The notes: a model not told the origin generated them from the sequence alone. DNA of 64,000 nt from Peptococcaceae bacterium (GCA_012517475.1 JAAYUV010000045.1:1-64000), one strand, 5' to 3'; numbered from the stretch's first letter, positions 16,430 to 47,086 are shown. A program made the numbers and translations.

Positions 16430-18055
16430 TCAAGATTTTATTTCTTTTTTATTTCCCGTTTGATTTGGCTCTATGGTATGTTTTGTCCAGATGTAAGAAG
16501 CCATATAAATCGACAAACTTGCAAACCCAAACAGGGATAAAGATCCCCATTTCATAGGGAGAGTACAGTTTTCAATTGTATTCCACCATTGACCGTAGGA
16601 TATTGAAGCAAGAAAAATCATACTATTTGAAATGGTGAAAGGCAAAATGAACTGTCTGCGTGGTGTAAAGAAAAAACCGAGTTCCTTCCGCAGAAAAAGA
16701 AAAAGAATACTAAAATTGACAAAGGTTCCGATAGCTGCTCCGTAACCTAATCCTGCAGCTCCAAAATCCTTAACCAACAGCAAATCTAAAAGAATGTTTA
16801 CCAGCATAGAGATAACAGCCGCCAACAACGGAAGATTTTTGTTGTCTTTCAGTAAACAAACCCGAATGAGCAGGGCGGAAAGCCCCTGCCAGGCAATGGA
16901 CAACGTATAACCCGACATGATACCGGAAGTCATAACCGTGGACTCATGACGAAACGAACCCCGCTCAAATAGAATACTAACAATGGGAGTATTCAGCATG
17001 AAAAGGATGATGGACATGGGGATCGTCAATAAAAGGCCGACGGTAAGAAACTGCTTGACACTCATGCGAAACATTTCCTGCCCCTCCAGCAAGAGTTTCC
17101 GGGAAAGTGTAGGAAATGCTACGGCGCTGATTGCTGCAATAAATACCCAAACCGGAAATTGAACAATGCGAAATGCATAATTGAGCGCAGCCAGCGTCCC
17201 TTCCCCTAGCCCGGAAGCGAGGTAACGTTCTACAGCATAGGTTACCTGACTGGTCAAGAGGACAAGAAAATATGGTGTAAAATTTTCACTTACTTTTTTC
17301 ATATTCGTTTTTACGCCGTGGATGTCAAATATTGAGCTTATTTTAGGAAAACGAGCTGCTCCCAAGAGGGACCAGGTGTAAAAGAATTGGATGAAAACAC
17401 TGATTAATATAAATCCGGAAAGGAGCATAACACCGTACTCTGTTACATCGGAAGCAAACCAAACGATGATTGTTCCTCCAAGCAGGACCGAATTGAATAT
17501 GACAGGACTGAAAGCGGATAACTTAAAACGACGATCTACCTGCAGTACGGAGATCCCCACATTGATCAGGGGAAAAAGAATCAGCGCAGGTAAAAGAATA
17601 ACCAAAAGTTTTCCTGCCAGAACACGCACCTGCTGTTCCAACCCCTGACCGATGAAATCAACCACCCAAAAACGAAAAAGGTAAAATAGAACGATGAAAA
17701 TAACTCCAGTAAGGACAGACAGCAGTGAGATCTGGCCAAACATTTGATCGGCTTTCATCCTGCCCATCTTCAGGCTCATCTCCGAGAAAGCAGGAAGAAA
17801 AGCCACCCCTAATGCTGCAGCCCATAAATTGTTGCCTACGGTGTCAATAATAAAATAGCTGAGCAAAAATGCGTCAGCTTCCGACGATGTGCCCAGATAA
17901 GAAGCAAAAAAAATATCTTTTAACAGGGATGTAAAGGCCAGAAGAAGATTAATTCCAATGATGGCGGTGATATTTCTTAACCAATCATGGTTTATATACT
18001 TGTCAAATTCCAGCCTTGCTTTTCTAACCCATTGCATAGATATTCGGCCTCTCAT
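16430..18055 (-). CDS. MurJ/MviN-like lipid-linked sugar flippase
   Basis: The 541-residue membrane protein has about 14 helices of the MOP superfamily. The N-terminal region (TSLLKDIFFASYLGTSSEADAF) and the later AALNYAFRI segment are typical of MurJ/MviN lipid II flippases and related exopolysaccharide flippases. In this setting it more likely moves a lipid-linked glycan or teichoic-type precursor than bulk lipid II, but that is inference. The start overlaps the preceding stop as TAATG, so translation is coupled to the ATP-grasp gene. Confidence 0.8.
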   Translation of the reverse strand: MRGRISMQWVRKARLEFDKYINHDWLRNITAIIGINLLLAFTSLLKDIFFASYLGTSSEADAFLLSYFIIDTVGNNLWAAALGVAFLPAFSEMSLKMGRMKADQMFGQISLLSVLTGVIFIVLFYLFRFWVVDFIGQGLEQQVRVLAGKLLVILLPALILFPLINVGISVLQVDRRFKLSAFSPVIFNSVLLGGTIIVWFASDVTEYGVMLLSGFILISVFIQFFYTWSLLGAARFPKISSIFDIHGVKTNMKKVSENFTPYFLVLLTSQVTYAVERYLASGLGEGTLAALNYAFRIVQFPVWVFIAAISAVAFPTLSRKLLLEGQEMFRMSVKQFLTVGLLLTIPMSIILFMLNTPIVSILFERGSFRHESTVMTSGIMSGYTLSIAWQGLSALLIRVCLLKDNKNLPLLAAVISMLVNILLDLLLVKDFGAAGLGYGAAIGTFVNFSILFLFLRKELGFFFTPRRQFILPFTISNSMIFLASISYGQWWNTIENCTLPMKWGSLSLFGFASLSIYMASYIWTKHTIEPNQTGNKKEIKS

Positions 18056-19239
18056 TACCTGTCAAATATCTGCCGCCACATATTGCGGTCAGGAAGATAA
18101 TGCAATGCAGCCAAAATAAAACCCGCCAGGGGCATGATGTCATTCCTGGAAAGGATGTCGTCATTGATCCCTTTTTTCGCCCCTGCGAAGAACGGAGGGT
18201 CCATCTTCCATCTGTTTTTGTTGCTTAAAAAATGCAGGATATCCCCCGGAAAAAGCCAGCGGCATTTTATACCCAGTTGGTAAAGGGATACCGTCTTGAC
18301 GGATTTCCCCATAATGAGACGGTAATAAAGCCAGGGAAAATCTACCCCGGACAGAATGGCCAGCTGCAGCGACCCCCAAAAACGGGGATTGATTTCCATG
18401 AATTTGTCTTTGCCGTCTCGCGGATCATGGATGAACTCTACTTCGGCAATCCCTTTCCAATGGAGGCTCTTCATAATGGCATCGGCTTTTTCTACAAGGT
18501 CAGGTCGCCATACACTTTCCTGTACTGTACTTGGCCCTTTGTCCAGGGGAAAATGCCGGATTTCCTTTTGCACAAAGGAAGCCTTCAGATTGGATGATTG
18601 ATCATAAAGAAGACAGACATCATATTTGGTTCCAGTCGGGATACACTCCTGGACAAGGGCAAAAGGAGAATGCCGGATAATTTCCTGGTAAACATTCTCC
18701 AGTTCCCCCGGTTCTCTTTCCGCCGTCATATACACGATTCCTCTTGATCCTGAGCTCTTCCGGGGCTTAATAACCAGAGGGAATTTCCACTGCTTGTCCA
18801 CAGCGCTCACATTTTCCAGATCCTTCTCCGTTTCCGGTTCGATACCCAACGGACAATCCACTCCTATTTTCCGGACCAGCCCTGTTGCCAGCCCTTTATC
18901 AGCCGCAATCCGATAATCCTCTTCCCTGGGCAAAAGCAAGTGGCAGGAAGATTTCAACTGGTCCTGCTGTTTTATCACCAGTTCGGATATCTCATCATCC
19001 ATTGGAAAAAGAGTTTCCACGTGGTATTCCTCAATGACTTCCATTAACTTTTCCCAAAAACTCCGAGGATTGGTTCTGGGATGAGGATAAACGATTCTTT
19101 TCCTGCAATACTTGGAAAAAGCGGCAGTTGCCCAGCGCGTATCTTCCCCCACAATAACCGTCAGCCCTTGTCTTCCTAACGACCTGGCGGCTGCCAGGGT
19201 TTTTCTCTGTTGTCCGTCTGTAAGCAGAACTGTTGTCAT
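18055..19239 (-). CDS. ATP-grasp ligase
   Basis: The start is ATG 19239, with AAGGAGAAGAG ahead; a codon ten residues upstream has no site. The 394 residues contain a Rossmann-like preATP-grasp domain (VLLTDGQQRKTLAAARSLG), an ATP-binding lysine segment (FPLVIKPRKSSGSRG, about 165-180) and the metal-binding FMEINPRFWGS near 300-310. This is the carboxylate-amine/thiol ligase subgroup seen in cell-surface gene clusters. It could join an amino acid to a sugar or lipid carrier. The substrate cannot be read from the sequence. Translation is coupled to the flippase downstream. Confidence 0.82.
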   Translation of the reverse strand: MTTVLLTDGQQRKTLAAARSLGRQGLTVIVGEDTRWATAAFSKYCRKRIVYPHPRTNPRSFWEKLMEVIEEYHVETLFPMDDEISELVIKQQDQLKSSCHLLLPREEDYRIAADKGLATGLVRKIGVDCPLGIEPETEKDLENVSAVDKQWKFPLVIKPRKSSGSRGIVYMTAEREPGELENVYQEIIRHSPFALVQECIPTGTKYDVCLLYDQSSNLKASFVQKEIRHFPLDKGPSTVQESVWRPDLVEKADAIMKSLHWKGIAEVEFIHDPRDGKDKFMEINPRFWGSLQLAILSGVDFPWLYYRLIMGKSVKTVSLYQLGIKCRWLFPGDILHFLSNKNRWKMDPPFFAGAKKGINDDILSRNDIMPLAGFILAALHYLPDRNMWRQIFDR

Positions 19240-19250
19240 CTCTCTTCTCC

Positions 19251-21197
19251 TTATTTGGATACTCCCCAAATTTCGGCCAGGGATTCCTGTTTTTCATCAA
19301 CTTGGCGAATATGGTAAACCTGGATCAAGTCATCTTCGTAGTAAAGCTGAATATTATTGTGACACTTTCCGTATTCCTTTACCCAGTTTCCAAGCGCCTT
19401 GTAATAGTAATCCCGCTGGGAAAGAATTGTCTCCATTTCCTTAAAGGGAGGCCGGAGCATTTTTTTCTCGATAAAGATAAAGATATTCTGAATTTCTAAA
19501 ACCGCCTGATTATCTTTCCGGTAAATTTTTTCGGTCCAAGGGCTATAATTTTCTGCGAATTCTTTCAGATGCATATGCCAGCTCTTCCCTAAAGCCAGGT
19601 CATAGCCTTCCTCACTCGAAACCATCATCCAGGTCGTTGGCGTATACTCTTTACTTAAACGCAGGTATTGGTTAACCATACAATCATACTGCATTTTATA
19701 TGGAGCCGGCGCTTCCGGAGGAAAGAACACCATGCCCACTACAATTGCCCCGAAACAAAGAAGCGGTTCGATCTTACCTTTCATAATACGGGGAAATCCG
19801 TAGGTTACTGCACCCCACCCTAAACCCAGACCGATACTGACTACAACGGACCACAATACACCGGCCCGGCTGGTCAGGACGGCATTCCCCGTGTAGGGGG
19901 CAATATAGAGGTAAAGAAGCAGGGATATACCGCCAAGCATCAGGACAGAAAGTGCCCTGCCCATTTTACTCCTGAGACTCGGAAAGATAAGCATTACCAG
20001 AAAAAAGAGCCCGATTCCCGCTCCCAGAACCTTATCAAAGACAGTCAAAACAGGAGGATCTATCTGCAGGCTGCTTAACAGGAAATCGACAGATGAGCCA
20101 TGCATCTTTTTGCCCATGAGTAAACCGGCAAGTAATGGTATCCCGGACACGATCCCGCTAATCATTCCTGCTCCCGTAAGATGCCGGGCCGCTTTAAAAT
20201 TTGCCCTGGGGGAGACCAGCATATAAGCCAACAAAAAGCAAAAGACCCCGATCGCCATAAAAACCCAAATCAGAGTATGAACAAGGCCGGTTACCGCGTA
20301 ACAGGATAATGCGGTCAAAAAGGCGTTCTTATCCCTGGATTCCAAATAGGACACCGTAAAATGCCAGGCAGGCACAAGAAAGACAAGCCCAAATTCCTGA
20401 GCGTTGGTTGCAGCCTGTCTTTCCAGACCAATCGGAAGGTACTGACCCAAGACCCCAAAAATAAAGGCTGAAAAAATTCCCGCATAGGGATTGGCCGTTA
20501 ATCTCCGGACAAACAGGTAAATGCCGAAAGTAATCAGCAATCCGTTAAAAGGTCCGGTATACTTCAGAACATAAATGGGGTCCTGACCGGCAAATTTGCG
20601 TAAAACTGAAAGATAAAAATGAAACCCCTGGGGATAGATCCCATCGTGAAAGAGTATATTCTGTTCCAGATATTTCATCCAGGCCAGGGTGACATAGGAA
20701 TCGGACATGGAGGGAGCCGCATGGTGAAGACTGTCATTGAATCTGAGATATGCTGACACAACCAGAACAAGAAGTAAGACGGAATTCGGAATAAGCTCCT
20801 TCCAAAATCCCTTCAGTGAGAATTTGAAAGACATCTTCCCTTTCAGACCCTGAAATGCCTTTACTTCCCCGTCCAAAAAACGGTAGATGAAAACGTTGAG
20901 CTTGGTGATCTTATCTTCAAATCGTTTTCGCTTATCCCGGTACGGTAATCTGGAAAGCAGGGGGAACAATAGCAAAATAAGGCCCAGGGTCAGCAGTTCG
21001 TAGAGCTTAATGCTGATCAGGAGGTAACACAGGATAATGATTAACGCCACCATTTTGGCATATTTGTCGAAAAATCTTTCTCCTGGGGTCTCTTCGCTGC
21101 TTTTGAACAGGAAAGAAGGCCATATCGTAAATACAATTAAAAACGATAAAGCAAAACGGATGATATTCACCATCTGATCCTGAACAGGTATGTTCAC
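19251..21197 (-). CDS. Large multi-pass membrane protein, possible glycosyltransferase or polymerase
   Basis: This 648-residue protein has two helices at the N-terminus, a basic cytoplasmic stretch (about 85-130), then about ten further helices and a C-terminal soluble domain of about 130 residues. After the first loop it has SMSDSYVTLAWMKYL and DGIYPQGFHFYLS segments, which resemble the outer loops of C-type membrane glycosyltransferases (PMT/ArnT-like), though I do not see a clear catalytic DE pair. It starts at GTG 21197 after AAGGAG. It may polymerise, extend or decorate the glycan of the Pel-like operon. Function is not established. Confidence 0.5.
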   Translation of the reverse strand: MNIPVQDQMVNIIRFALSFLIVFTIWPSFLFKSSEETPGERFFDKYAKMVALIIILCYLLISIKLYELLTLGLILLLFPLLSRLPYRDKRKRFEDKITKLNVFIYRFLDGEVKAFQGLKGKMSFKFSLKGFWKELIPNSVLLLVLVVSAYLRFNDSLHHAAPSMSDSYVTLAWMKYLEQNILFHDGIYPQGFHFYLSVLRKFAGQDPIYVLKYTGPFNGLLITFGIYLFVRRLTANPYAGIFSAFIFGVLGQYLPIGLERQAATNAQEFGLVFLVPAWHFTVSYLESRDKNAFLTALSCYAVTGLVHTLIWVFMAIGVFCFLLAYMLVSPRANFKAARHLTGAGMISGIVSGIPLLAGLLMGKKMHGSSVDFLLSSLQIDPPVLTVFDKVLGAGIGLFFLVMLIFPSLRSKMGRALSVLMLGGISLLLYLYIAPYTGNAVLTSRAGVLWSVVVSIGLGLGWGAVTYGFPRIMKGKIEPLLCFGAIVVGMVFFPPEAPAPYKMQYDCMVNQYLRLSKEYTPTTWMMVSSEEGYDLALGKSWHMHLKEFAENYSPWTEKIYRKDNQAVLEIQNIFIFIEKKMLRPPFKEMETILSQRDYYYKALGNWVKEYGKCHNNIQLYYEDDLIQVYHIRQVDEKQESLAEIWGVSK

Positions 21198-21231
21198 GCT
21201 TGCACCTTCTCCTTTTTTCGATATTTGAGGG

Positions 21232-22833
21232 CTACTGGGCCGAGTATAAATAATAGTCCAGATTAGATAAGACTTTTATAACGGAGCGTAAGGAAAGGAC
21301 AAGGAAAACAACCGTTCCCACGGCCAATCCGATAACTGCCCAGTAATACGCAATCCAGCGGCTGAGAATAAAACCGATCACAGCATTAACGATGACAGCA
21401 ATAAAAATAGATTTAGCCACAGTGGATGGATAAGACAAGCAGAAGAGGATAAGGGTATTCATCAGTCCCAATGACAGCAAGGAATAAGAGCCAAGCGCCC
21501 AGATGAAAACAAAGAGGGTAATATGGTTTCGAAAGACCCGGAGATGGATAAATCCGTTGTACTCTAAAAAACGAATTAAGAAAAAAAGAGCAATACTGTT
21601 TACAATGCAGAATAAACCGATAAAAATTAACCTCTTCAGATAAAATCTAAGGTATTGGGAAGACAATGCAGATAATTGACTGATACTGTATGTCTTTTGG
21701 TCAGCAACCAGCTTGAACATGATTTCATTCACAACCACTTCAACCAACCCCATGGGTAAAATCAAAACCAATAAGGCAAAATCCAAACCCAGCTCGTATT
21801 CTCCTCGGAACCAAATAAAATAGGGCATAAAAGCGGTATTGGCTGACCATGCGACAATCCTGTCCAGATTCAGAAAAAGGAAGTATAAAAAGCCATACTT
21901 GAAATAAGGTAAACAAATAAAATACATGACAGATTTTCTCGGGAGATCGGGGGAAATTCCCATGTCCTTCTGGCGTTCGCTTCGTAAAAAAAGCAGATGG
22001 GAGGTCAATACCCCCAGTACGGCGATAATTCCCAGAGAAATCAGTTGGGAAACAATAATGTTCATTTTGAGAATCAGAAACAGAATAAATACAATTCCGA
22101 TCCCGAGTGTAATCAGTCCAGTGAAAACAAGCTCCTTCTGCAGGATATACATCACGGTTACTGAAAGCCAGATACCTGATAAGAAAATCAAAAAAAGGAT
22201 AATTAACAGGGACATTTGCCAGGGGTAGATTGAAAACAACCAATTAAAAATAAAAAACAACAATGCAGTCACAAGTGACGTGACAAAACCAATTCGAACA
22301 AAATAATAGACACTTTTTCTGGCCATATTGACATAACCCTGATTCAGATACATAAAACCGAACCTGGCTAAAGCCTGGATAAAACCGCCTACGATAACAA
22401 AGCTGAGAATGGTTCCAATGGCGATACTGGTTGCCGCCGAAACAGACAGATATTCGTAGGACCACAATGAAAACCGCAGGGTCAGCATGGCAGTAACGGA
22501 TACCGCCATGGGCAAGGCAAAAATGCTGCCCCTTAAAAAGCTTCTGATAATTTTTGCAATATATCTCCCAAAGTCCGACTCCCGGGCATGTTCTACCGGA
22601 GCCTCGAGATGATCTTTGCGGATGGTGTCCCAGATCTTTTCGGCGAGGACAAAAACATCATCCAGTCCGAAAAGACTCCTGGCTCTTTTATCATTCCATC
22701 CCATGGATTCCAGCGTTGCAGCGATTTCATACCTGTCCACAGGATTTCGTACTTTTTCCAAAACCTGTCTTGTCAGCTCCTGAAAGGAGTTTTGTTTGGA
22801 ATCGGAAAGCACCGCAGTATTTTGACCAGTCAT
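21232..22833 (-). CDS. PelG-like polysaccharide transport protein
   Basis: The 533-residue protein has an N-terminal soluble part of about 110 residues with a small helical domain (VRNPVDRYEIAATLESMGW), then about 12 membrane helices. The helical core and features such as LNLDRIVAW, LDFALLVLILPMG and the terminal DYYLYSAQ resemble PelG, the MOP-superfamily inner-membrane partner of the PelF glycosyltransferase. Similarity is weak and judged by eye. PelG proteins normally lack the N-terminal domain. The ATGA overlap with the coiled-coil gene upstream couples translation. Confidence 0.55.
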   Translation of the reverse strand: MTGQNTAVLSDSKQNSFQELTRQVLEKVRNPVDRYEIAATLESMGWNDKRARSLFGLDDVFVLAEKIWDTIRKDHLEAPVEHARESDFGRYIAKIIRSFLRGSIFALPMAVSVTAMLTLRFSLWSYEYLSVSAATSIAIGTILSFVIVGGFIQALARFGFMYLNQGYVNMARKSVYYFVRIGFVTSLVTALLFFIFNWLFSIYPWQMSLLIILFLIFLSGIWLSVTVMYILQKELVFTGLITLGIGIVFILFLILKMNIIVSQLISLGIIAVLGVLTSHLLFLRSERQKDMGISPDLPRKSVMYFICLPYFKYGFLYFLFLNLDRIVAWSANTAFMPYFIWFRGEYELGLDFALLVLILPMGLVEVVVNEIMFKLVADQKTYSISQLSALSSQYLRFYLKRLIFIGLFCIVNSIALFFLIRFLEYNGFIHLRVFRNHITLFVFIWALGSYSLLSLGLMNTLILFCLSYPSTVAKSIFIAVIVNAVIGFILSRWIAYYWAVIGLAVGTVVFLVLSLRSVIKVLSNLDYYLYSAQ

Positions 22834-23678
22834 TTCATTTGATCCATCCCGGGTATGATCATATTGATAATGAGTTCGGAGAGCTTGCCTTCACGTTGGG
22901 CCTTTTCAATGTGTTCCAGCGTAATTCTTTCATTCTTTTCAAGAATGATTTCACCGGAATTATCCAGAAGCTGTTCACCTGCCAATTTATCAATCATGTA
23001 TTTATAGCGGGCATTATCAATCTTCGTTTTTAAACCTTCTTGTGAAAGCCCTTTTTCCTTCATATCTTGACTTTTCTGCATACTGACGGAGTTGAACAAA
23101 GAACCGGCTGCCGTTTCTTTCTCATAAAATCCTGATCTCTCGGGGTATTGAAGTGAAAAATCAAGTTCTGAATGTTTTGGGACAAAGGTTTTTGGGACTG
23201 AATCAGAACGCCTGTTTTTATTCTGGGGAAAATCATTTAGAACTTTCTTCTCTAATGCTTTCATAATGGAATCGACCTTGGGATTCGCACTTCCCCCCAA
23301 CATTTTAATAACGATATTCAGTTCCCTTTGGATATCGATTTTGGCGTCTTCAATTTGACTGTCAATGGTTTTAACCTGGTTTTGAAGATGACTTATCTTG
23401 GTTCCGGCGTTTTCCATGATCTGTCTGGAGTTCTCATCTGCAGCTTTTAAAAGGGTAATACAAATATTCTCCAGTCTTTGGACTCCCAATTCCAGAACTG
23501 CCGTACTATGCAGAGCCGCAAGGTCATCCATAAGCTTGTTCAGATATCTCTCCAATTCATTTTTTTCTTCCTGCATTTTATTTCGTTCCTCTTCCAGAAT
23601 GAGAAGTCTCTGTCTGTTAAAGGAACGAATTTCTTCCAGCTGCTTTTCCAAATTACTCTTGTTGCCCCCTATGTACAT
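22830..23678 (-). CDS. Coiled-coil protein of unknown function
   Basis: The 282 residues have no signal peptide or membrane segment. Residues about 5-125 form a long heptad-rich helix beginning NLEKQLEEIRSFNRQRLL, with further coil to about 150. A linker of low complexity follows, and the C-terminal 60 residues (YMIDKLAGEQLLDNSGEIILEKNERITLEHIEKA) resemble a short oligomerisation or tether domain. It lies one base from a second coiled-coil gene and overlaps the PelG-like gene by four bases, so the three are likely to be made together. A structural or scaffold role at the synthesis complex is a guess. Confidence 0.6.
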   Translation of the reverse strand: MYIGGNKSNLEKQLEEIRSFNRQRLLILEEERNKMQEEKNELERYLNKLMDDLAALHSTAVLELGVQRLENICITLLKAADENSRQIMENAGTKISHLQNQVKTIDSQIEDAKIDIQRELNIVIKMLGGSANPKVDSIMKALEKKVLNDFPQNKNRRSDSVPKTFVPKHSELDFSLQYPERSGFYEKETAAGSLFNSVSMQKSQDMKEKGLSQEGLKTKIDNARYKYMIDKLAGEQLLDNSGEIILEKNERITLEHIEKAQREGKLSELIINMIIPGMDQMK

Positions 23679-23679
23679 A

Positions 23680-24105
23680 TTAATCTGCTTCTTCCCTTTC
23701 CAGGATATTTTCGTACCGGCCTGCTATGCCGAGAAACTCCTCTTTCATCTTGCGAATCGAATCTTTTAACCTAGACAGTTCCAAACTCTTGCTTTCAATC
23801 AGCATCTTCAAATCATTGATGGATTCTTCAACATTTTTTATGGTGAACGCAGATTTTTCTACGGAGGATATATAACTTTCATACAACTGGGTGGAAATTT
23901 TGTTCTTTAAATCAAGACCGTTTTGTAATTGTTCCTCGGCTTTCTTTACTCTCTCCTTCAGCAATTCTTTTTCATGGATCAGGCAAGATAATTCCTGAAT
24001 AAGATTCAGACGCTGCTCTTCAAAATACTGGTTTTCTGCTTGAATCATTTTCGTGATTTCTTCTATTTCGTTATTAGCCAATGAGCGCCCGAGTTTGGGA
24101 ATCAT
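23680..24105 (-). CDS. Short coiled-coil protein of unknown function
   Basis: The 141-residue protein is almost wholly predicted coil, rich in Glu, Lys and Leu, with several helices broken near residues 68-80. There is no membrane segment. ATG 24105 follows a GGGGAG site. It is 35 bases from the PelF-like gene and one base from the longer coiled-coil gene, which points to a complex of the two. I recognise no family. Confidence 0.6.
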   Translation of the reverse strand: MIPKLGRSLANNEIEEITKMIQAENQYFEEQRLNLIQELSCLIHEKELLKERVKKAEEQLQNGLDLKNKISTQLYESYISSVEKSAFTIKNVEESINDLKMLIESKSLELSRLKDSIRKMKEEFLGIAGRYENILEREEAD

Positions 24106-24140
24106 TTTTCTCCCCGCCTTTTTGCGAAATATATCAGTCT

Positions 24141-25877
24141 TTAGGCAATACTTTCGTCTAAGAACTGGGCAACTAGTCCGGCCTTATACAGATAGATCTT
24201 CGCATTTTCCAATTGTCCTAACTCCGTGTAAGCAATCGCGATCTCCGTAAGGAGAACAGGAACTGCCGATGAATCCGGAGACTCTTTGATGGCCTGATTG
24301 AATTGTTCTATCGCTTCCTCATATAGTCCCAATTCGGCCAGAGCATAGCCTTTATCTGCATAGAGTTTTTGTTTCAAGAGTTTCGTTTCAAATCTATTAA
24401 TTCTATTAAAGAACAGCTTCTTATATGCCTTGTAATATAATTGAGTGGCTCTTTCCAGCGTAAAAAAATTAAGCGCTCGTTTCGATGCCTCCTGACCAAA
24501 ATGTTCTCTGAGTTCCGTATCTTTCAGGAGCCTGATAATTGCCTTGGCCAGATCTTCATATTGTCCGGGCTGAACAATCAATCCCGCTTCTCCCAGAGCT
24601 TCACTGACACCGCCAACATCCGTAGAAACAATCGCTTTACCTGCCATCATGGCTTCAACCACGGAATACGGAAACGCCTCGGTTATACTCGAGAGAGCAA
24701 TCACATCCGCTTGCCGGAGAACAGACGGCACATCCTCCGTATGTCCCGCTATTACAAAATGATCCTGCAAGTTCAATTTTTTTACCAAATCCATACATTC
24801 TTCATAATATTTCTGTACGGATACAGTTCCATATACCATGAATTTCACTTCAGGTATCTTATGACTAACCAGCTCCGCAGCTTTTATCAAGGAAATAATA
24901 TCTTTTACCGGATCTATCCTTGCCACAGTTACAACTGTGGGATTCACATTCACCGCCGGGGCATCCCCGGGAGCAAATTGTTCCTGGTTCACTCCGTTAT
25001 AGATGACTTCAATTTTGGATGGCTTTACATCAAACTGTTCCTCCCAGCGGGTATTGTATTTACAGACCGGCGAAACTTGATCTGCCATGTGATAATTCAT
25101 GGTGGAAATGGATTGAACCAGACGAATCAGAAACGTTTTCAGATAAGAAGAGTAGCTAGCCCTATTGGCCGCCAGGTATTGTTCTCTCAGATAAACACCA
25201 TGCTCAGTTAATAAGAACGGGGTCTTGTGCTCCAACTTGGCTATGACACAGGGAATACCGCAAAAGGCAGCCGCCGCGGAATGTGCAACATCCACCTTGG
25301 GGACCGGAGTATTTAGGATTGTAAAAAATCTATAGATCCAGCCTAAGCTTTGAATGAGGTCAAAAGCACTGGGCCAGGGAAGTTTTTTCCCCGAATCGGA
25401 AGAACTTGCCGTTATGATATTTTTAAATACCTCCCAGGTAATCTGGGCTTTAAAACTCTCCCTATAGTCATACTGTTGGAAATACCGGTATAACGCGTGA
25501 ACGGTTTGGGCAAAAAGAACCGGATCTTTTTCCGGAGATATGATTTGTTCGATTAAGGAGATAAATTGGGGAAGAAATTGCTTCTCCACAATTTGAATAT
25601 CAGTCCGTTTTTTGGCCAGGTAGATCTCTGAGAAAGACCGTAATAAATGCTCGCTGGCATCTTCGGTTCCCCAGAGGGGTACTCTGATCAGAGAAGAGTT
25701 TTCCGGCAGGGTAAACTTCTGGGTAACATAGGGATTCATAATAATGCTATAAATAACAAAATCAACCCGCTCAAGGTTCCTTAGCAGCACATCACACCAT
25801 GTACTTACTCCTCCATGGCTAAACGGATAAGTTCCTTCCGTTGCAAGCATCACTTTAATCTTAGAAACAGTACTCAT
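24141..25877 (-). CDS. pelF: PelF-like GT4 glycosyltransferase with C-terminal TPR repeats
   Basis: PelF is the cytoplasmic glycosyltransferase that polymerises Pel, a GalNAc/GlcN-rich exopolysaccharide, probably from UDP-sugars. Residues about 8-60 hold the family's opening (ATEGTYPFSHGGVSTWCD) with the NPYVTQKF and RVPLWG segments. The GT-B C-terminal half contains the EAFPYSVVEAMMAGK motif near 400-415. From about 500 the chain continues as a helical repeat region with two TPR-like units (KGYALAELGLYEEAIEQF, IAIAYTELGQLENAKIYL) to residue 578; classical PelF stops earlier. I start at ATG 25877 because AGGTGAT lies seven bases upstream. Confidence 0.85.
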   Translation of the reverse strand: MSTVSKIKVMLATEGTYPFSHGGVSTWCDVLLRNLERVDFVIYSIIMNPYVTQKFTLPENSSLIRVPLWGTEDASEHLLRSFSEIYLAKKRTDIQIVEKQFLPQFISLIEQIISPEKDPVLFAQTVHALYRYFQQYDYRESFKAQITWEVFKNIITASSSDSGKKLPWPSAFDLIQSLGWIYRFFTILNTPVPKVDVAHSAAAAFCGIPCVIAKLEHKTPFLLTEHGVYLREQYLAANRASYSSYLKTFLIRLVQSISTMNYHMADQVSPVCKYNTRWEEQFDVKPSKIEVIYNGVNQEQFAPGDAPAVNVNPTVVTVARIDPVKDIISLIKAAELVSHKIPEVKFMVYGTVSVQKYYEECMDLVKKLNLQDHFVIAGHTEDVPSVLRQADVIALSSITEAFPYSVVEAMMAGKAIVSTDVGGVSEALGEAGLIVQPGQYEDLAKAIIRLLKDTELREHFGQEASKRALNFFTLERATQLYYKAYKKLFFNRINRFETKLLKQKLYADKGYALAELGLYEEAIEQFNQAIKESPDSSAVPVLLTEIAIAYTELGQLENAKIYLYKAGLVAQFLDESIA

Positions 25878-25887
25878 TCCCAATCAC

Positions 25888-26847
25888 CTATATGATCCGA
25901 ACTTTCTCTCTCCGATAAATGGCTGCGGGCCTAAAAAAATAGATTGTTTCCTTCAACCCCACCTGCAAATTATAAATCGGCATCCATTTGAGGTATTTCT
26001 GTGCTTCGCTGATGTCTAAATAGCTATGGAGAATGTCTTGCTTCCTTCTTACCTCATATTTGGGCTCTATTTCTACTCCCAGCTCCCGGGCAATAAAGAA
26101 ATATAATTCTCTGATACTTGTAGACTGGCCGGTTCCAATGTTCAATGTGAGATTTTTTCCTTTTTCCATCGCCAATATATTGCCTACCGCAACATCTTTA
26201 ACAAAAACAAAATCACGGGTTTGTTCTCCATCTCCAAAGATGGTGGGTGTAATCCCGGTGAGAAGACTATTGATAAAAATAGCTACCACCCCGGCCTCAG
26301 AATCGGGTAACTGCCCTGGCCCGTAGACATTGGCATAGCGCAGGATGGTGTAGTCTAACCCGTAAAGTTTGCTGTAGAGTCGGATATACAGTTCAGCCCC
26401 ATATTTGGATACCCCGTACCCGGCTAATGGTTCGACAGGATGGTTCTCGTCAACGGGAAGATATTCGGGGGTTCCATACACCGCGGCAGATGAAGCAAAT
26501 ATAATTTTCTTCGGTCTGAATTTTACAGCCGCATCCAATATGTTCAAAGTTCCTACAATGTTTACTTCCGAATCCGTTACGGTATTCCGGACCGAGTAAG
26601 GAACACTGACCTGAGCAGCCAGATGAAAGATAATATCCGGCCGTTCCTGGGAAAAGCAATTAAACACAAATTCTTTATTACAGATATCTCCATGATAAAA
26701 GGTAACCCCAGGCGGAATATTTTCTTTTTTTCCTGTTACAAGACTATCCAGTACAGAAACCTTATATTTAAGGTTATAAAGCTGTCTCACTAATTCTGAG
26801 CCAATAAATCCCGCCCCGCCTGTAACCAGTACCTTCATCTTTAACAC
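25888..26847 (-). CDS. NAD-dependent UDP-sugar 4-epimerase (GalE/Gne/PelX-like)
   Basis: The 319-residue extended SDR enzyme has the NAD loop TGGAGFIGSE near residues 9-18, the catalytic Tyr-Lys in YGVSKYG (about 149-155) and the Ser-rich FASSAAVYG ahead of it. It is probably a UDP-glucose or UDP-GlcNAc 4-epimerase. In Pel loci an epimerase (PelX) makes UDP-GalNAc, which suggests a similar supply role here. It starts at GTG 26847, overlapping the glycosidase stop by seven bases. A clear paralogue lies at 56092-57039. Confidence 0.85.
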   Translation of the reverse strand: MLKMKVLVTGGAGFIGSELVRQLYNLKYKVSVLDSLVTGKKENIPPGVTFYHGDICNKEFVFNCFSQERPDIIFHLAAQVSVPYSVRNTVTDSEVNIVGTLNILDAAVKFRPKKIIFASSAAVYGTPEYLPVDENHPVEPLAGYGVSKYGAELYIRLYSKLYGLDYTILRYANVYGPGQLPDSEAGVVAIFINSLLTGITPTIFGDGEQTRDFVFVKDVAVGNILAMEKGKNLTLNIGTGQSTSIRELYFFIARELGVEIEPKYEVRRKQDILHSYLDISEAQKYLKWMPIYNLQVGLKETIYFFRPAAIYRREKVRII

Positions 26848-27671
26848 AAGCCCAAACCCTCTTTCTTTAAGGAATACGCCACTGAGTCTATATTGATTTT
26901 TCCCGTATACCCGTCTTTCGCATGATATGCGAGAAAGCTTTGTTCTTTGGCCATTTTGCGAACAGCCGGGATATCCCTGGATTGACCTTCGGTAAGTAAA
27001 AGAATCTGTATATTATATTCGCTTTTGATCTTATTTAGATTGTCGACAAGCACAGGCAACCAAGGTACCTTCACCCTCTCCCTGTCAGGGGGATTTTCCC
27101 AGCATACGGCGTTTAGAAAGGGCGAGGTATATTGAATAATCTCAGCAAGTCCCCCATTTTGGATCAAAATATGCCGGGGAAAGGTCTCCCGTATCCTTCG
27201 GACTATTTGGGTCAATAGAAAGATACTTTCTTGTTTTCGGGATAACGGATAACCATTTTCTTCTATATAACCCAATGTATCGAAAAAGACTCCGTCATAT
27301 TTCAAATAGTTCAAGAAATAGCTGACTTTATGCAGTAACAGGTTTGTCCAGCTTTCGGACCTCAGATCAACCCAGTAGTTATTAAACTTTGGGTTGATAA
27401 GCGGCTGTCCTTCCGATTGGAGGTAATCATCCTTTTTTAGGAAGCTGAATTCTCTGCTCCAAGGACAAATCTCCAGCACACTGAGATAACCAATAACCAG
27501 CGTTCCTGCCTTTTTGATATGCTGTATACTCCCATCTGTTTGTCCGGCAGGATCCACAACAGCCATATCAAAAAGAGACAGCATTTCCTCTTGGCGGTGT
27601 CCATAATACAGCACATAGTTTCTGCACATTGAAAATTGTAATATTCTATCCATCATTCTTTCTCTGAACAT
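26841..27671 (-). CDS. GH114-like glycoside hydrolase (endo-alpha-polygalactosaminidase type)
   Basis: The 276-residue protein has the TIM-barrel pattern of the GH114 and PelA-hydrolase families. Key segments are VIGYLSVLEICPW (59-71), YWVDLRSE (99-106) and DGVFFDTLGY (126-135) with paired acidic residues D126 and D131, then NAVCWENP. These enzymes cleave alpha-1,4-linked galactosamine polymers. No signal peptide is visible, so it might act inside the cell or be exported another way. It stands between the HD-GYP gene and the epimerase, spaced 8 bases and overlapping by 7. The start could be ATG 27671 or a later ATG. Confidence 0.7.
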   Translation of the reverse strand: MFRERMMDRILQFSMCRNYVLYYGHRQEEMLSLFDMAVVDPAGQTDGSIQHIKKAGTLVIGYLSVLEICPWSREFSFLKKDDYLQSEGQPLINPKFNNYWVDLRSESWTNLLLHKVSYFLNYLKYDGVFFDTLGYIEENGYPLSRKQESIFLLTQIVRRIRETFPRHILIQNGGLAEIIQYTSPFLNAVCWENPPDRERVKVPWLPVLVDNLNKIKSEYNIQILLLTEGQSRDIPAVRKMAKEQSFLAYHAKDGYTGKINIDSVAYSLKKEGLGLC

Positions 27672-27679
27672 CCTCCATT

Positions 27680-29572
27680 TTAGGCGGAACTATTTTCTAG
27701 TGGAGTAGTAACTTTTGTTTTTCGGTATATGAATTCGGTATAAACAATACAGGTGTCGCAATGATTGCCATGGGCCTCACAACAAACCCCTTTGATGTCC
27801 CAACAATGTAAGTTCTTTTTTTGATAAGCGGGACAATTTTCGCGAATATGAGAAGGACAACATCTCATTTCCCAGCACCACCCCAGAGAATATGCCAGAC
27901 GCGAGGAACTCAACTGCTTCTTTTTAAACCATAGCAGAAAAACCTCAACAACTTCCGGATCAAGCTGGGTACCGGAAGCAGCACTCATATCCGTAATGGC
28001 CTGTTCAAAAGTTAGTGGTTCCCGGTATTTTCGCCCTTGTATTTTTGCGGTAAAGAAATCGGCCGCTGCAATGACCCTGGCTCCTAAAGGAATCTGATTC
28101 CCCCCTAATCCTCCCGGATAACCAAGCCCGTCCCATCTTTCATGATGATGCCTTATATAGGAAGCAACCTTTTGATTGACGATGGTGGACTCGATCATGG
28201 TTGCGCCCGCTTCCGGGTGAAATTTTATGGTCTCATATTCCAGCGGATTAAACCTGCCTTGCTTATTCGCCAATTCTCCGGAGAGGCTGATCATACCAAT
28301 ATCATGAAAATAAGCTGCTAACTTAATATCTTCTATTTCCTCCGGGGATAAATTCATTTGTCTGGCAAGGGTAACCGAATACCGGACAATCAGCTCGGAA
28401 TGCCCGACAGTATGCGGTTCGAGGTTATCCAGGGTCTCAATCAATGTTTTCCATGTCTTGATATAAGAAAAGGATAAAGCTTTATAGGCTTCTTGCTGAT
28501 CCCATATCTCGCCTAAGCGCTTTGCCATCATTTCCAGAAACGCTTCCTGCATTTTTGAAATATTGGGTAACCTCTTATACCAAAAAATTATTATTCCCTT
28601 TTGACACTTGCTGTTTGTTTTCGCAATGACCAAGGATTGAATCCCTAAAGCCAAAAAATAATAAGGAATTCCGTAAAATTCTTTTGAATCCGGTTTGATC
28701 TGACAGACCGTCTTGTTTTCCAGGAATTGATACAGGATATCCAAGGTTTCTTGATCGTGACGAAATTGAAACTCTACTTCTTCCGCTAGCCTTGTCATAA
28801 CAGGAATGTCCCACTTTTCATCTGCTTTCCTGCCCAGGCAGCACCCACTGGTTTCCATTGTTCTTGACATTACTGTCAGAACATTTTGGGTTACCTGATC
28901 GACTGAATATACAGATTGGTTTAACTCATGGATGACCCGATTGGTATTTTTAATGGTTTCAACATGATTCTTTACGTATTCCAGTTCCAGCAGCAAATGT
29001 AATAAGGGGCCAAGCTTCATTCTAACATCCTCAAGGATTTTTCGGCCCAAAACCGAAAGGGACCGAACAGGGCCTATTCGGATAAGCCCTTCCCCGCCTT
29101 CCAAACACAATTCCAAAAGCGTTTCTTTCTGATCTTTCGTAAACAGTATCGATCCATTTTTTTTTGGTCCTGCAATTCCCAAAGGAGGGCTGTACTTTCT
29201 GGAATCATAAGGAACCAGTCCGCTGTAATCGGCACCGGTTACCTGATAGCTGCAATGCTTATGCCGCGAAACCCTTAAACGATAATTATCCGACTGAGAG
29301 TCAAATATATAAAAATAATACCCGTCTGCCTGGACTGCAGAGATAATAGCCTCAAGGACAGCATTCAGCTGTCCGTCCAATTCTCCTTCATTCTTAGCAG
29401 CCTTAAAAAGTATATCTGTAACAGCGGCTGTTCTTTTCGAATAACAGGTGCTTCTTTTGAGGATAAAAACAAAAATGAGCAGGACAAGCATCACTGTGAT
29501 TAATACTATGATTATGACAAAAAGTGCCTGTTCAGAACTAAATCCATTCAGACCAAAACGAATCATTGACAT
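27680..29572 (-). CDS. Membrane GAF/HD-GYP protein with a C-terminal Cys cluster
   Basis: The 630 residues contain an N-terminal membrane helix (about 15-38), two GAF-like sensor regions (about 55-200 and 235-355), a full HD-GYP domain (about 380-540) and a Cys-rich tail. The HD-GYP motifs are complete: HDIG, HPEAGA, HHERWDGLGYP, and ARVIAAADFF. HD-GYP proteins hydrolyse c-di-GMP. The tail (from about 580) carries nine cysteines spaced as in the two-CW-like modules of anaerobic sensors, perhaps binding metal or sensing redox. Its place in the operon suggests control of polymer synthesis through c-di-GMP. Confidence 0.85.
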   Translation of the reverse strand: MSMIRFGLNGFSSEQALFVIIIVLITVMLVLLIFVFILKRSTCYSKRTAAVTDILFKAAKNEGELDGQLNAVLEAIISAVQADGYYFYIFDSQSDNYRLRVSRHKHCSYQVTGADYSGLVPYDSRKYSPPLGIAGPKKNGSILFTKDQKETLLELCLEGGEGLIRIGPVRSLSVLGRKILEDVRMKLGPLLHLLLELEYVKNHVETIKNTNRVIHELNQSVYSVDQVTQNVLTVMSRTMETSGCCLGRKADEKWDIPVMTRLAEEVEFQFRHDQETLDILYQFLENKTVCQIKPDSKEFYGIPYYFLALGIQSLVIAKTNSKCQKGIIIFWYKRLPNISKMQEAFLEMMAKRLGEIWDQQEAYKALSFSYIKTWKTLIETLDNLEPHTVGHSELIVRYSVTLARQMNLSPEEIEDIKLAAYFHDIGMISLSGELANKQGRFNPLEYETIKFHPEAGATMIESTIVNQKVASYIRHHHERWDGLGYPGGLGGNQIPLGARVIAAADFFTAKIQGRKYREPLTFEQAITDMSAASGTQLDPEVVEVFLLWFKKKQLSSSRLAYSLGWCWEMRCCPSHIRENCPAYQKKNLHCWDIKGVCCEAHGNHCDTCIVYTEFIYRKTKVTTPLENSSA

Positions 29573-29594
29573 TTTTTGTTTTCCCCTATCCTGT

Positions 29595-30041
29595 TTAAAA
29601 AGGAATATTTATTTTACTTTCGTTAGAAAGAAAGACGTTTTTTTCATTTCTAAAATAAAAATGTTCTAAAGCTTTTCGTTTAGGTAAGTTTTGACCTTTT
29701 GGAATATGTATTCCGGTACTGTTTATAATTGAAAGATTTTGAGCAAGCTCTTTACATTTATTTTGAAGAGCGGAGATCTGGATGGATTGATAGAGAAGCA
29801 ACAGAAAAATTACAAAGTTAGAAATAAGGAAAAGCAGTGCAGGCGGATAATCTATCAATAGAGAAGAGGCGAGGATTTGCAAAATGGACGGAATGAGTGC
29901 CAAAAGTATCATTACCATCGACGTCGCAATCCAGGGCAAAGAGGCTCTTTCGTCTATTTTCCGGGTGACAAGAAGATAGAAAACAAGGAGAACAAAGAGG
30001 GCGCCCATGGCAAGAATAATAATCCTCAGTACTTCAGACAT
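29595..30041 (-). CDS. DUF2304 membrane protein
   Basis: The 148-residue protein has three membrane helices (about 5-24, 38-58, 68-90), then a short cytoplasmic coil region. The order and length match DUF2304. In many bacteria this small membrane protein is the partner of a polyprenyl-phosphate GT2 glycosyltransferase. Here it overlaps that gene by eight bases. It may help place the enzyme or move its product. Confidence 0.85.
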   Translation of the reverse strand: MSEVLRIIILAMGALFVLLVFYLLVTRKIDERASLPWIATSMVMILLALIPSILQILASSLLIDYPPALLFLISNFVIFLLLLYQSIQISALQNKCKELAQNLSIINSTGIHIPKGQNLPKRKALEHFYFRNEKNVFLSNESKINIPF

Positions 30042-30765
30042 AACGCATCACCTTCTTCTCAAATTTAAGCCTTAATACTACTACCAGGATACTTACTATC
30101 ATTTTGAGGACATAATAAACACATTTGATTCCTTTATGCATACTTTTGCCTGACAGTCTCTTTATGTTCTTTGCCGGAACTTCCAAAACCCGATACCCTT
30201 TTTTGATGGCGTAAATCAGGGTATCGGCATCGGGATAATCTTCAGGAAACATCCCCATTTTTGAAAAATGCTCGAAGACTTCTCGGTTTAGGCCTTGCAA
30301 TCCCGATGTCGGATCGGTAATACGCTCTCCGGTAAAAAATTTAATAAGCAGGCGGAAAAAACGAATGGCGGCACCTTTAAACAAGCCGGCATCCCTTATG
30401 TCCTCCAAAAACCTGGAACCGATCACGATATCACAACTTCCGGACTCTAAACATTCCCGTATTGTGGAGATAACCCGTGGATCATGCTGTCCGTCAGCAT
30501 CAAACTGGATTACATATTTGTACTCCCTGGCAAGCGCATACTTATATCCTGTTTGCAGTGCTCCTCCGTACCCAATATTGAAAAAATGATTAATCACCTG
30601 TTCCCCCATCCCGCTGGCAATCCCGCCTGTACCATCCTCGGAACCATCGTTGATGACAATGATATCCAGACCTTGACTGTACTCGCGAATACCTTGGATA
30701 ACCTGAAAGATATTGTTCTCCTCGTTATAGGCCGGAATGATGATGAGACCCTCTGCCTTATTCAT
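30034..30765 (-). CDS. GT2 polyprenyl-phosphate glycosyltransferase
   Basis: This 243-residue GT2 enzyme resembles dolichyl-phosphate mannosyltransferases. It has the nucleotide-binding IIPAYNEE segment (9-16), the DXD motif in QFDADGQHD (about 91-99), and an SGLQGL segment. It would transfer a sugar from a nucleotide donor to undecaprenyl phosphate, for use by a membrane glycosyltransferase on the outside. The pairing with DUF2304 and the large membrane protein downstream supports that. It is the first gene of the Pel-like operon. Confidence 0.85.
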   Translation of the reverse strand: MNKAEGLIIIPAYNEENNIFQVIQGIREYSQGLDIIVINDGSEDGTGGIASGMGEQVINHFFNIGYGGALQTGYKYALAREYKYVIQFDADGQHDPRVISTIRECLESGSCDIVIGSRFLEDIRDAGLFKGAAIRFFRLLIKFFTGERITDPTSGLQGLNREVFEHFSKMGMFPEDYPDADTLIYAIKKGYRVLEVPAKNIKRLSGKSMHKGIKCVYYVLKMIVSILVVVLRLKFEKKVMRYV

Positions 30766-31082: not shown

Positions 31083-32105
31083 TTACAAACCAAATACTTT
31101 TTTTACTTCAACCAGGGTATCGACATTCATATTGGAAAGCATAACCTGCTTGAGGTCCGTTTTTTCTTCCGGAGAAAGCTTGGAATACATCGCTTTCACG
31201 GACTGAGCCTCAGCTTGAAACGGGTAAGAAGGATTGGCGGTCATTTTGCTGACTACCCCGCGGATGGTAGAGATGATCGCTTTCTCACCGGCTGTTTTTA
31301 CTTTGCCAAGCACAACTGATAGCTGGCCGTTGACCTGCTGCAAAAGTTCCTTCTTGGTTTCATCGGAAACCTTTGGAGGGTCTGCAGGTTGTGCAGGTTT
31401 ATTATTTCCTGTGTCCTTGGAAGCATTGTTTTGTATGGCGCTTGCCGAAAGATTATTATTTGAAGGGGTCCCATTGGAACTATCGGTATTTGATTGGGCT
31501 ATTGCCGAAGAAGGAGTACTCTTATTAAACCCTATCGTCATTTTCCCCTCGGTGATGTCTAAGGCTGCAATTGCAAAAGGGATAAATTCTTTGTCCAGAA
31601 CCAGGTTTCCCTCCTCTATCGTGATTCCTTTAGCGGCTATTTTGCTGAGCAAATATGAAATCATGCTTTTGGGCAGCGGAACACTTCCCGCCCAAAACCC
31701 CTGGGGTTGATAGATGATACTTCCCTCCCGGGAAGAAAGATTACCTTTACTGTGAAGAACGACCTCAATCGAACTGAGGTAAGATGCCGGGGCAAAAAAT
31801 GCAATGCCTTTGTCCAGAAGTTTAATATTTACTTCTTTGATATTTTGCTGGGAGGCAAGAACCTTTGCCGCGTAGAATTTAACGATGGAATTAACCTCAG
31901 TTTCACTCAGTTCAACCGTCCCACCCAACTTTTCAGCTTTTCTCACCTTATCAATTGCTTTCAGGGCAGGTAAATCTTCGTATGCCGGGACATCTTTTTT
32001 TATTAGGGAGAAAAACGTAAAAACTGAGGCAGAAAGCAGAAGAGCTATCAAAACAAGGGGCAGCATTTTTTTTGAGGTTATTTTCAGAGGAGACCACTCC
32101 TTCAA
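31083..32105 (-). CDS. Membrane-anchored extracytoplasmic protein, weakly YpmS/DUF2140-like
   Basis: The 340-residue protein has one N-terminal membrane anchor (about 14-34) and an outside region. Residues 60-200 form an alternating beta-strand domain starting with VELSETEVNSIVKFYAAK, as in YpmS/DUF2140-like proteins. A Ser/Asn-rich linker (about 200-240) follows, then a helical domain to the end. The start is uncertain; a TTG at 32105 has no clear ribosome site. It follows capB with a 36-base gap. Its role in polymer control or surface attachment is unknown. Confidence 0.55.
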   Translation of the reverse strand: MKEWSPLKITSKKMLPLVLIALLLSASVFTFFSLIKKDVPAYEDLPALKAIDKVRKAEKLGGTVELSETEVNSIVKFYAAKVLASQQNIKEVNIKLLDKGIAFFAPASYLSSIEVVLHSKGNLSSREGSIIYQPQGFWAGSVPLPKSMISYLLSKIAAKGITIEEGNLVLDKEFIPFAIAALDITEGKMTIGFNKSTPSSAIAQSNTDSSNGTPSNNNLSASAIQNNASKDTGNNKPAQPADPPKVSDETKKELLQQVNGQLSVVLGKVKTAGEKAIISTIRGVVSKMTANPSYPFQAEAQSVKAMYSKLSPEEKTDLKQVMLSNMNVDTLVEVKKVFGL

Positions 32106-32141
32106 TGGTATCGTTTTATTTTTCTATCATTTTCTTAACAA

Positions 32142-32843
32142 TTATTTCACCATAAGAGTATCCCTATTTTTTTCCGCATAGTAATGATAGTAATAATTAT
32201 ACCCTTTAGATTTTATCTCCACTTTGTTTAGGACTGTGCCGATGATTTTGGCACCGACCTTTTCCAATCTTTCCTTGGCCTGCAAAGCAAACTCCTTATT
32301 CACTTCTCCTGACGCAAGCACCAAAACCACTCCGTCCACTGCCTGAGCAAGGATCGACGAATCTGTTACCGCAACAGTAGGCGGAGAGTCCACCAAAACC
32401 ATATCGTAGATTTCCGAAGCAAGCATCAAAACCTGTTTCATGCGTTTGGATCCGAGTAATTCGGCCGGATTCGGCGGTATGGGCCCGGAAGTTAGCACAT
32501 CCAATCCGGCCTGCTCCGTTTTGCAGACATATTTCATAAAAGGAACATCTTCTACCAGGGTGATAGAGAGACCTTGGGAATTATTCAGATTGAAAATCTT
32601 ATGTTGGGTCGGCTTGCGCAAATCGGCATCAACGATAAGAATGTTCTTATTGGCCTGCGCCATTGCCGTTGCCAGATTAGCCACTGTTGATGATTTTCCT
32701 TCGTTGACCCCTGCACTGGTAAATAAAATTTTCTTCATGACATGGTCTACATTGGCAAATTGAATATTGGTACGCAGAATACGGAAAGCTTCAGAAACCG
32801 GCGATTTTGGATTAGCCGCAGTAACAATGGTGTAATCCCGCAA
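32142..32843 (-). CDS. capB: Bacterial tyrosine kinase, CpsD/CapB family
   Basis: This 233-residue cytoplasmic kinase has the Walker A motif (SAGVNEGKSS, 43-52), Walker A' (VDADLRKP, 71-78) and Walker B (VLVDSPP, near 150), then a C-terminal Tyr cluster (GYNYYYHYY) where autophosphorylation occurs. Together with CapA it forms the split BY-kinase that controls capsule and exopolysaccharide polymerisation and export. The start is TTG 32843, with AGAGGGG six bases upstream. It is 15 bases from capA. Confidence 0.95.
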   Translation of the reverse strand: MRDYTIVTAANPKSPVSEAFRILRTNIQFANVDHVMKKILFTSAGVNEGKSSTVANLATAMAQANKNILIVDADLRKPTQHKIFNLNNSQGLSITLVEDVPFMKYVCKTEQAGLDVLTSGPIPPNPAELLGSKRMKQVLMLASEIYDMVLVDSPPTVAVTDSSILAQAVDGVVLVLASGEVNKEFALQAKERLEKVGAKIIGTVLNKVEIKSKGYNYYYHYYAEKNRDTLMVK

Positions 32844-32858
32844 ATTGACCCCTCTTTC

Positions 32859-33551: not shown

Positions 33552-33679
33552 CCTGCTCCTCCTGTAAGAGTACTTTGATAACAAAGATATGTTCCATTAT
33601 TTACCATATCTTATTCGCTTTGAATATTTTTATTCCTGTAGATTTTTTTCGGTCATTATTATCTTTTTTGTCATATATT

Positions 33680-38523: not shown

Positions 38524-38574
38524 GAAAATCCTCCTCGGTTAATAATTTAACCTTTACAAACCGGATCAGAGGTA

Positions 38575-39453: not shown

Positions 39454-39528
39454 GTCTTACCCCCCTTGGTTTTAAATATTTAGTAGTATATATTTTAACT
39501 TTTGAATTCAATACGGATCTCTATTTGA

Positions 39529-40158: not shown

Positions 40159-40215
40159 TTCTCCCCCGCCTTTTCGTTTTTAGTATCAAGAACCTTATGC
40201 CAATAAAAAACAAAC

Positions 40216-41478: not shown

Positions 41479-41515
41479 AAATTATCTCCAATGAGCAAAT
41501 ATTCAGTTGTGCAAT

Positions 41516-43043: not shown

Positions 43044-43206
43044 ATCGCCCCGCCTTTCAACATTATTACATTTTTTACATTTTTTACCTTATCGGGGATA
43101 GAAAAAATATAGAAGTTTTTGACCATTATTTTTAAAGGTGTTATCTACCACTTCTATAAAGCTATGCTGCGTGTTTTCAACTTATTACCAAAATATCAAT
43201 ATGAAG

Positions 43207-47038: not shown

Positions 47039-47086
47039 ATGAAGTCATACTCCTTTCTGCCCTTTGTTTTCAACACTCGCAAACTG

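Follow-up and report, generated by a model that had tools for sequence, protein, structure and literature searches.

The window analysed here is the whole stretch of 64,000 nucleotides from a Peptococcaceae bacterium (GCA_012517475.1 JAAYUV010000045.1:1-64000). Its minus strand carries twelve open reading frames at 16430-30765 with spacings from -19 bp (an overlap) to +35 bp, so the open reading frame calls reproduce the tight run described in an earlier note made from the sequence. That note regarded the run as a variant of the Pel exopolysaccharide system. Pel, a partly deacetylated alpha-1,4-GalNAc polymer, is one of the biofilm polymers studied most closely, and PelD, PelE and a deacetylase are common to the loci known for it. 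Scans with Pfam and NCBIfam agreed with the earlier note on a GT2 glycosyltransferase, a DUF2304 protein, an HD-GYP protein, a GH114-like glycosidase, a sugar epimerase of SDR type, a PelF/DUF3492 protein, an ATP-grasp enzyme and a flippase of MurJ/MATE type. Searched singly against the same libraries, the PelG-like protein, a GT-C protein and two coiled-coil proteins termed CC1 and CC2 gave no strong match. An Rfam scan found no RNA element, and a promoter and terminator scan found sites no more numerous than in shuffles. The operon belongs to a co-conserved branch of PelF/PelG-kind systems, for which no description was found in the open-licence literature, and it very probably builds and exports a sticky polymer of sugars that is related to Pel.

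Polymerase and exporter

The gene at 24141-25883 encodes a PelF-family GT4 glycosyltransferase. It scored 162.5 bits with the NCBIfam PelF model (NF038011) against a cut-off of 100, matched DUF3492 at 1.2e-40 and has an intact GT4 EX7E motif (E402-E410), with TPR repeats at the C-terminus (TPR_1 2.9e-7). Only five of 61 related genomes contained a protein passing the PelF cut-off, and the same five have the PelG-like gene. When 40 PelF and GT4 proteins were placed in a maximum-likelihood tree, the 18 PelFs of the window-type system formed a single clade (support 100/100), sister (99/97) to PelFs encoded on plasmids of Deinococcus, Streptomyces, Kocuria and Thermus. The split between these and the PelFs of Gram-negatives, fusobacteria and canonical Gram-positive loci is itself well supported, even though the long outgroup branches leave the root of the tree uncertain. 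The window PelF therefore lies on a branch separate from canonical PelF.

Downstream, beyond CC1 and CC2, 21232-22833 encodes the PelG-like protein, an exporter of predicted MOP fold with an additional N-terminal helical domain of ~90 amino acids. The Pfam PelG model PF16933 matched four of the 17 orthologues (best 1.4e-7), and a genome search gave 32 bits for one orthologue against a cut-off of 29. Since direct HMMER searching of the PelG-like proteins with a canonical-PelG model gave no match (best E 0.34), profile-profile comparison with controls was used instead. With hhalign the PelG-like family aligned to canonical PelG with a probability of 85% over 400 colinear columns, and the negative controls MurJ and Wzx stayed below 1%. 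The AlphaFold 2 (AF2) model of the protein (pLDDT 82) matched WzxE, MATE and MurJ structures in Foldseek. As judged from these comparisons the protein is a remote relative of PelG that reaches the family at profile level only; the identification in the earlier note stands in that form, the window protein itself having no match to PF16933.

The additional N-terminal domain carries the motif E[IV]AAxLESxGWND...FG...VFxLA. The same domain is present in the 'hypothetical' membrane protein encoded after pelF in the Deinococcus/Streptomyces group (profile match 98.9%). A plasmid search with the PelG-like protein itself gave no match. The common domain implies that the two PelF branches pair with two forms of PelG. 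The plasmid loci (L086-L089, L097 and L098) thus resemble the window operon in having a sister PelF and a downstream PelG-like protein with this domain, but GH114/GH135-type genes and long hypotheticals replace the DivIVA-like pair, GT-C, HD-GYP and ATP-grasp genes described below. They look like another little-described PelF pathway.

Scaffold, regulator and accessory enzymes

Between pelF and pelG lie CC1 (23680-24105), a short coiled coil, and CC2 (22830-23678), a coiled coil followed by a conserved C-terminal domain of ~55 amino acids. The earlier note had recognised both as coiled-coil proteins, and the profile evidence refines this by identifying them as DivIVA/GpsB-like scaffolds. The DivIVA Pfam model matched 10 of the 17 CC1 orthologues (best 4.9e-11), other coiled-coil families matching one member each, and the N-terminal CC1 profile retrieved GpsB and DivIVA. 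Among 18 CC2 orthologues DivIVA and PRC-barrel each matched four, and GpsB was the top PDB match of the CC2 profile. The signal is concentrated at the N-terminus, where most orthologues have the motif GY[D/N]xxxV and then the coiled coil, as in the DivIVA/GpsB family. They differ from that family in the position of their genes and in the PRC-barrel and/or C-terminal domain that CC2 adds; the window pair differs also in having lost the motif. No DivIVA match at E<=0.001 was found in the window's genome (G000, rated 98% complete), and a same-genus genome and one same-family genome gave weak DivIVA matches only. The idea that the motif was lost in the window following the loss of a canonical DivIVA was not supported, as the same-genus genome lacks a clear DivIVA and keeps the motif in its cluster.

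The gene at 27680-29572 encodes an N-terminal transmembrane segment, a GAF-like region, an HD-GYP domain (HD_5 2.6e-35) and a Cys-rich tail. PDB matches were to the HD-GYP structures 5z7c and 4mcw and to 3ci6, the N-terminal region of PtsP. The HD, HHE and GYP motifs and the last metal Asp are all present in the window protein, and the metal ligands are likewise intact in the relatives L008, L009, L010 and L039. In L034-L037 the last Asp is replaced by Glu, and L020, L021 and L022 have lost it together with the HD. Upstream of the cluster at L020:2262-4157 and L021:2137-3984, a CC2-like DivIVA-type N-terminus is fused to GGDEF and EAL domains (215 bits), and the carriers of this fusion are genomes whose HD-GYP protein is without metal ligands. 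The window's genome encodes about 25 GGDEF proteins. Judged by its ligands, the window protein looks like a catalytically intact candidate phosphodiesterase or sensor for cyclic di-GMP (c-di-GMP). The Cys-rich tail, CW...C...CPA...CW...C.xHG..C..C, is absent in L035-L037 and is perhaps metal- or redox-sensing.

The earlier note had proposed that c-di-GMP control moved from the receptor PelD to this HD-GYP protein. Neither a PelD nor a PelE gene is present among the twelve, the absence of PelD being a statement of gene content. The PelD model PF16963 found nothing in the window's genome and also missed canonical Gram-positive controls, and it was rejected as a test of absence. PelE would be a separate TPR membrane gene; no such gene is found among the twelve, and the TPR sits on PelF. 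A transfer of control is plausible, but the window protein, with its ligands intact, resembles a working phosphodiesterase. The tie to c-di-GMP is firmer than in the earlier note; which protein senses the nucleotide and which one breaks it down is something that we infer.

The GH114-like glycosidase (26841-27671; PF03537 1e-8) is of the PelA-hydrolase type. Its alignment profile matched PelA structures best (9cgy, 5.7e-17; 5tcb, 1.3e-14), with TM1410 (6e-4) and Ega3 (0.67) far behind, and YDGxFxDT and CWE, acidic residues included, are conserved in the family. The window hydrolase has no signal peptide or transmembrane segment and an N-terminal hydrophobic segment was found in none of the homologues, so it is predicted to be probably cytoplasmic, unlike PelA. 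The NAD-dependent sugar epimerase/dehydratase of GalE/SDR type (25888-26847; Pfam Epimerase 1.3e-61) scores 184 where the GalE equivalog requires 262 and is found in part of the relatives only. The Pfam and NCBIfam scans found no PelA or PelADA deacetylase gene among the twelve, in agreement with the earlier note; a deacetylase of DUF3473 type does, however, lie inside the cluster in seven relatives. The window genome's DUF3473 orthologue (71%) is on another contig (G000:C88). In Gracilibacter a second block directly downstream of the main operon (L105:4027-10334) contains two DUF3473 deacetylases together with ATP-grasp, MurJ-like, GT2 and DUF2304 genes.

The large membrane protein of the earlier note (19251-21197) is indeed a membrane protein and can be given a GT-C glycosyltransferase fold. 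Its AF2 model (pLDDT 89) matched STT3 in Foldseek at 2.8e-9, and STT3, AftA, DPY19 and ArnT were all matched at a probability of 1.00. It resembles STT3, AftA and ArnT in fold and differs in that the sequence family search gave no assignment for the window protein. Normalised by query length, the TM-scores to these three are much alike at about 0.35-0.46, and the fold therefore does not reveal the donor or the acceptor. Relatives (L008, L009, L010 and others) usually have two copies. The GT2 enzyme (30034-30765; Glycos_transf_2 1.3e-21), with orthologues at 58-59% in L008 and L010, is probably a polyprenyl-phosphate sugar synthase given its small membrane partner DUF2304 (29595-30041; PF10066 3.1e-19) and the GT-C enzyme; DUF2304 adjoins GT2 also in L008, L010, L020, L021 and L024. 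The ATP-grasp enzyme of the carboxylate-amine ligase family (18055-19269; ATPgrasp_Ter 5.6e-10, ATP-grasp_3 1.4e-8) is conserved in 11 loci. The last gene (16430-18055; PF03023 1.7e-64) is a MOP-family flippase of MurJ/Wzx-like type, the name MurJ being justified at superfamily level, as its score of 211 lies below the 235.55 that the MurJ equivalog requires; a MurJ-like flippase also lies within the clusters of L010, L033, L034 and L039.

Distribution and loss of the gene set

The gene set or its core was found in 18 further loci, nearly all from Bacillota. The carriers are Gracilibacter, Desulfosporosinus, Ca. Dichloromethanomonas, Pelotomaculum, Dethiobacter, several other Bacillota and one contig binned as Smithella; the operon is not confined to Peptococcaceae, since it reaches several other families of Bacillota. 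Blocks of gene order are shared with Gracilibacter, Desulfosporosinus acididurans and Ca. Dichloromethanomonas, so the order has not arisen by chance. In a sample of 398 genomes drawn evenly from the phylum, eight had the PelG-like gene. PelF and PelG are present in all loci, the Smithella-binned contig being cut within both, and CC1 and CC2 in nearly all, apparently fused in Dethiobacter and not found in G437. PelF-CC1-CC2-PelG is the most constant block. GT-C is missing only from a decayed Desulfosporosinus copy (G036) and from L019, a contig ending in PelG, and the epimerase, DUF2304 and MurJ-like genes are optional. Contig ends truncate several loci, and gene absences in these mean little. 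The core with HD-GYP and hydrolase recurs, often in one direction, amid unrelated flanks such as the aro genes of L011 and L017. Neither of the outcomes that the earlier note had named as refuting its reading was observed: the 24141 protein falls within PelF, the 21232 protein is a remote relative of PelG at profile level, and the operon in which both are co-conserved also holds an epimerase and a hydrolase of PelA type, as expected for the distinct Pel-like branch that the earlier note had envisaged.

Degraded copies show that the system is often lost, the unit being lost and replaced. In Ca. Dichloromethanomonas, L106:5971-13001 is syntenic with 10667-36175 of the window, the flanks being kept and the operon reduced to CC1, CC2 and a frameshifted scrap of PelF; the intact cluster, whose PelF groups as sister to that of Gracilibacter, lies on a different contig. 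At the aro locus of Desulfosporosinus, L107:6579-8022 has CC1-CC2 alone left and L011:3067-7602 has PelF-CC1-CC2 and a PelG without its middle. An independent function for solo CC1-CC2 pairs was considered and rejected; the L106 pair is a remnant, because the scrap of PelF adjoins it and the start of its CC2 is apparently lost.

Next to the operon, 31083-33584 of the window contains a protein of unknown family (31083), a tyrosine-kinase-like ATPase and Wzz, whose synteny with a CWB2 gene is conserved independently of the operon. Further on, 36884-50725 on the minus strand is a region of Wzx/Wzy type with a flippase, Wzy_C, a DegT aminotransferase, a nucleotidyltransferase, GT4 enzymes and acyltransferases.

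Interpretation of the operon

The best reading of the operon is a PelF/PelG-type machine for a synthase-dependent polysaccharide, with a DivIVA-like scaffold, a c-di-GMP input through HD-GYP and decoration by GT-C, on a branch separate from canonical Pel; we give this a probability of roughly two in three. From the gene identities, folds, gene order, co-conservation and phylogeny we infer the product, the link of the machine to c-di-GMP and the localisation. PelF would polymerise a nucleotide sugar in the cytoplasm, likely of UDP-GalNAc type although this is unproven, with the epimerase supplying the sugar, and the nascent chain would exit via the PelG-like MOP protein. The coiled-coil scaffold of CC1 and CC2 may hold the synthase to the membrane, with poles or septa as possible sites, and together with the TPR tail of PelF would take the place of PelE. 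The membrane-anchored GAF-HD-GYP protein would be the c-di-GMP input replacing PelD; with its ligands intact, as in the window, it would act as a local phosphodiesterase, and without them as a receptor. That the machine is controlled by c-di-GMP is probable. GT2 with DUF2304 would make a polyprenyl-phosphate sugar, which the MurJ-like flippase or the DUF2304 protein would move across the membrane and which GT-C would add to the exported chain outside. The ATP-grasp enzyme, and the DUF3473 deacetylase in relatives, may modify the product, and the PelA-type hydrolase may trim or clear chains on the cytoplasmic side.

Several observations weigh against this reading. PF16933 matches neither the window PelG-like protein nor any other protein of the window's genome, the GY[D/N] motif is lost in both CC1 and CC2 of the window, which calls for caution in this genome, and the intact HD-GYP ligands do not indicate a receptor role there. 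What remains of the Desulfosporosinus G036 copy is PelF-CC1-CC2 with a PelG that has an internal deletion, and in two loci CC1-CC2 alone is left. The cluster abuts the Wzx/Wzy-type capsule region, to whose pathway some of the accessory genes could belong. All of the enzymatic and regulatory steps above are drawn from knowledge of the families.

An unlikely alternative is that PelF builds a lipid- or protein-linked glycan which a MurJ-like protein exports and an STT3-like GT-C transfers, giving a wall-linked or S-layer-associated polymer, a capsule or glycosylated surface proteins. STT3 oligosaccharyltransferase is the nearest Foldseek match of GT-C, a MurJ-like flippase and GT2-DUF2304 are in the operon, the neighbours include CWB2, Wzz, tyrosine-kinase-like genes and the Wzx/Wzy region, and DivIVA-like scaffolds would suit zones of wall growth. 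However, the CWB2/Wzz flank lies outside the conserved unit and stays in Dichloromethanomonas where the operon has gone, and the TM-scores to STT3, AftA and ArnT are too alike for the fold to identify donor and acceptor. The pairing of PelF with PelG and the lack of a lipid-initiating transferase in the operon point instead to export of synthase type.

It is improbable, too, that this is a Gram-positive pel operon of the ordinary kind, whose product would be Pel itself and which differs by diverged sequences and added accessory genes. Such loci are of the pelDEADAFG type, as in Bacillus cereus ATCC 10987 (PMC7112168, PMC13254593), and an epimerase and a PelA-type hydrolase are among their known accessories (PMC7112168). 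The window shares these two with them, together with a PelF that passes the family model and a remote PelG, but the canonical loci have PelD, PelE, PelADA and a PelG recognised by PF16933, and those examined in Bacillota have none of CC1, CC2, GT-C, ATP-grasp, MurJ-like or HD-GYP. The window PelF falls outside the clade of Gram-negative and canonical Gram-positive PelFs, and its hydrolase is without a signal peptide. The operon can also be compared with the canonical Pel system, pelABCDEFG of P. aeruginosa. The likenesses are a PelF-family GT4 adjoining a PelG-related MOP exporter, a PelA-hydrolase-type enzyme and a GAF protein that is anchored in the membrane and has a domain of c-di-GMP type. 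The differences are the lack of PelB and PelC (not expected in a Gram-positive), PelD, PelE and the PelA deacetylase, a hydrolase without signal peptide, a PelF on the other branch, and the added DivIVA-like pair, GT-C, ATP-grasp, MurJ-like and GT2-DUF2304 genes. Because neither a PelE nor a PelA deacetylase gene was found among the twelve and PelG is reached at profile level only, the operon should not be classed under Pel itself.

Finally, a chance adjacency of several unrelated polysaccharide modules in a large glycan region is very improbable: several relatives lack the epimerase, DUF2304, MurJ-like and ATP-grasp genes or have them elsewhere, and a polysaccharide region lies next door at 36-50 kb, but the PelF-CC1-CC2-PelG-GT-C core with HD-GYP and hydrolase recurs in lineages with unrelated flanks.

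The separate PelF/PelG machine most likely works like a Pel operon with a different set of scaffold, regulator and decoration genes. The open-licence papers searched include none that combines PelF, DivIVA and exopolysaccharide. The main texts of PMC7112168 and PMC7112194 make no mention of DivIVA, Pelotomaculum, Deinococcus, Desulfosporosinus or other Desulf- names, and some of these loci may be listed as pelFG-only in the 161-organism supplement of the 2020 survey. A more detailed proposal, which we put forward tentatively, is a second PelF/PelG branch in anaerobic Bacillota in which a DivIVA/GpsB-like pair positions the synthase and exporter at particular sites of the membrane and couples them to c-di-GMP turnover, through HD-GYP or the DivIVA-like-GGDEF-EAL fusion, and in which the chain is decorated outside by a dedicated GT-C fed by polyprenyl-phosphate sugars.

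If true, this second branch would combine the logic of synthase-dependent polysaccharides with that of lipid-linked ones, and the PelF/PelG core would be a reusable engine for polymer export that accepts different regulators, scaffolds and decorations. Roles can be proposed for families so far called 'hypothetical', namely the PelG proteins with the N-terminal domain, CC1, CC2 and the GT-C proteins. With the operon, a link of DivIVA-type positioning to the secretion of exopolysaccharide becomes testable, and it names a candidate biofilm system in syntrophic, sulphate-reducing and dehalogenating Bacillota.

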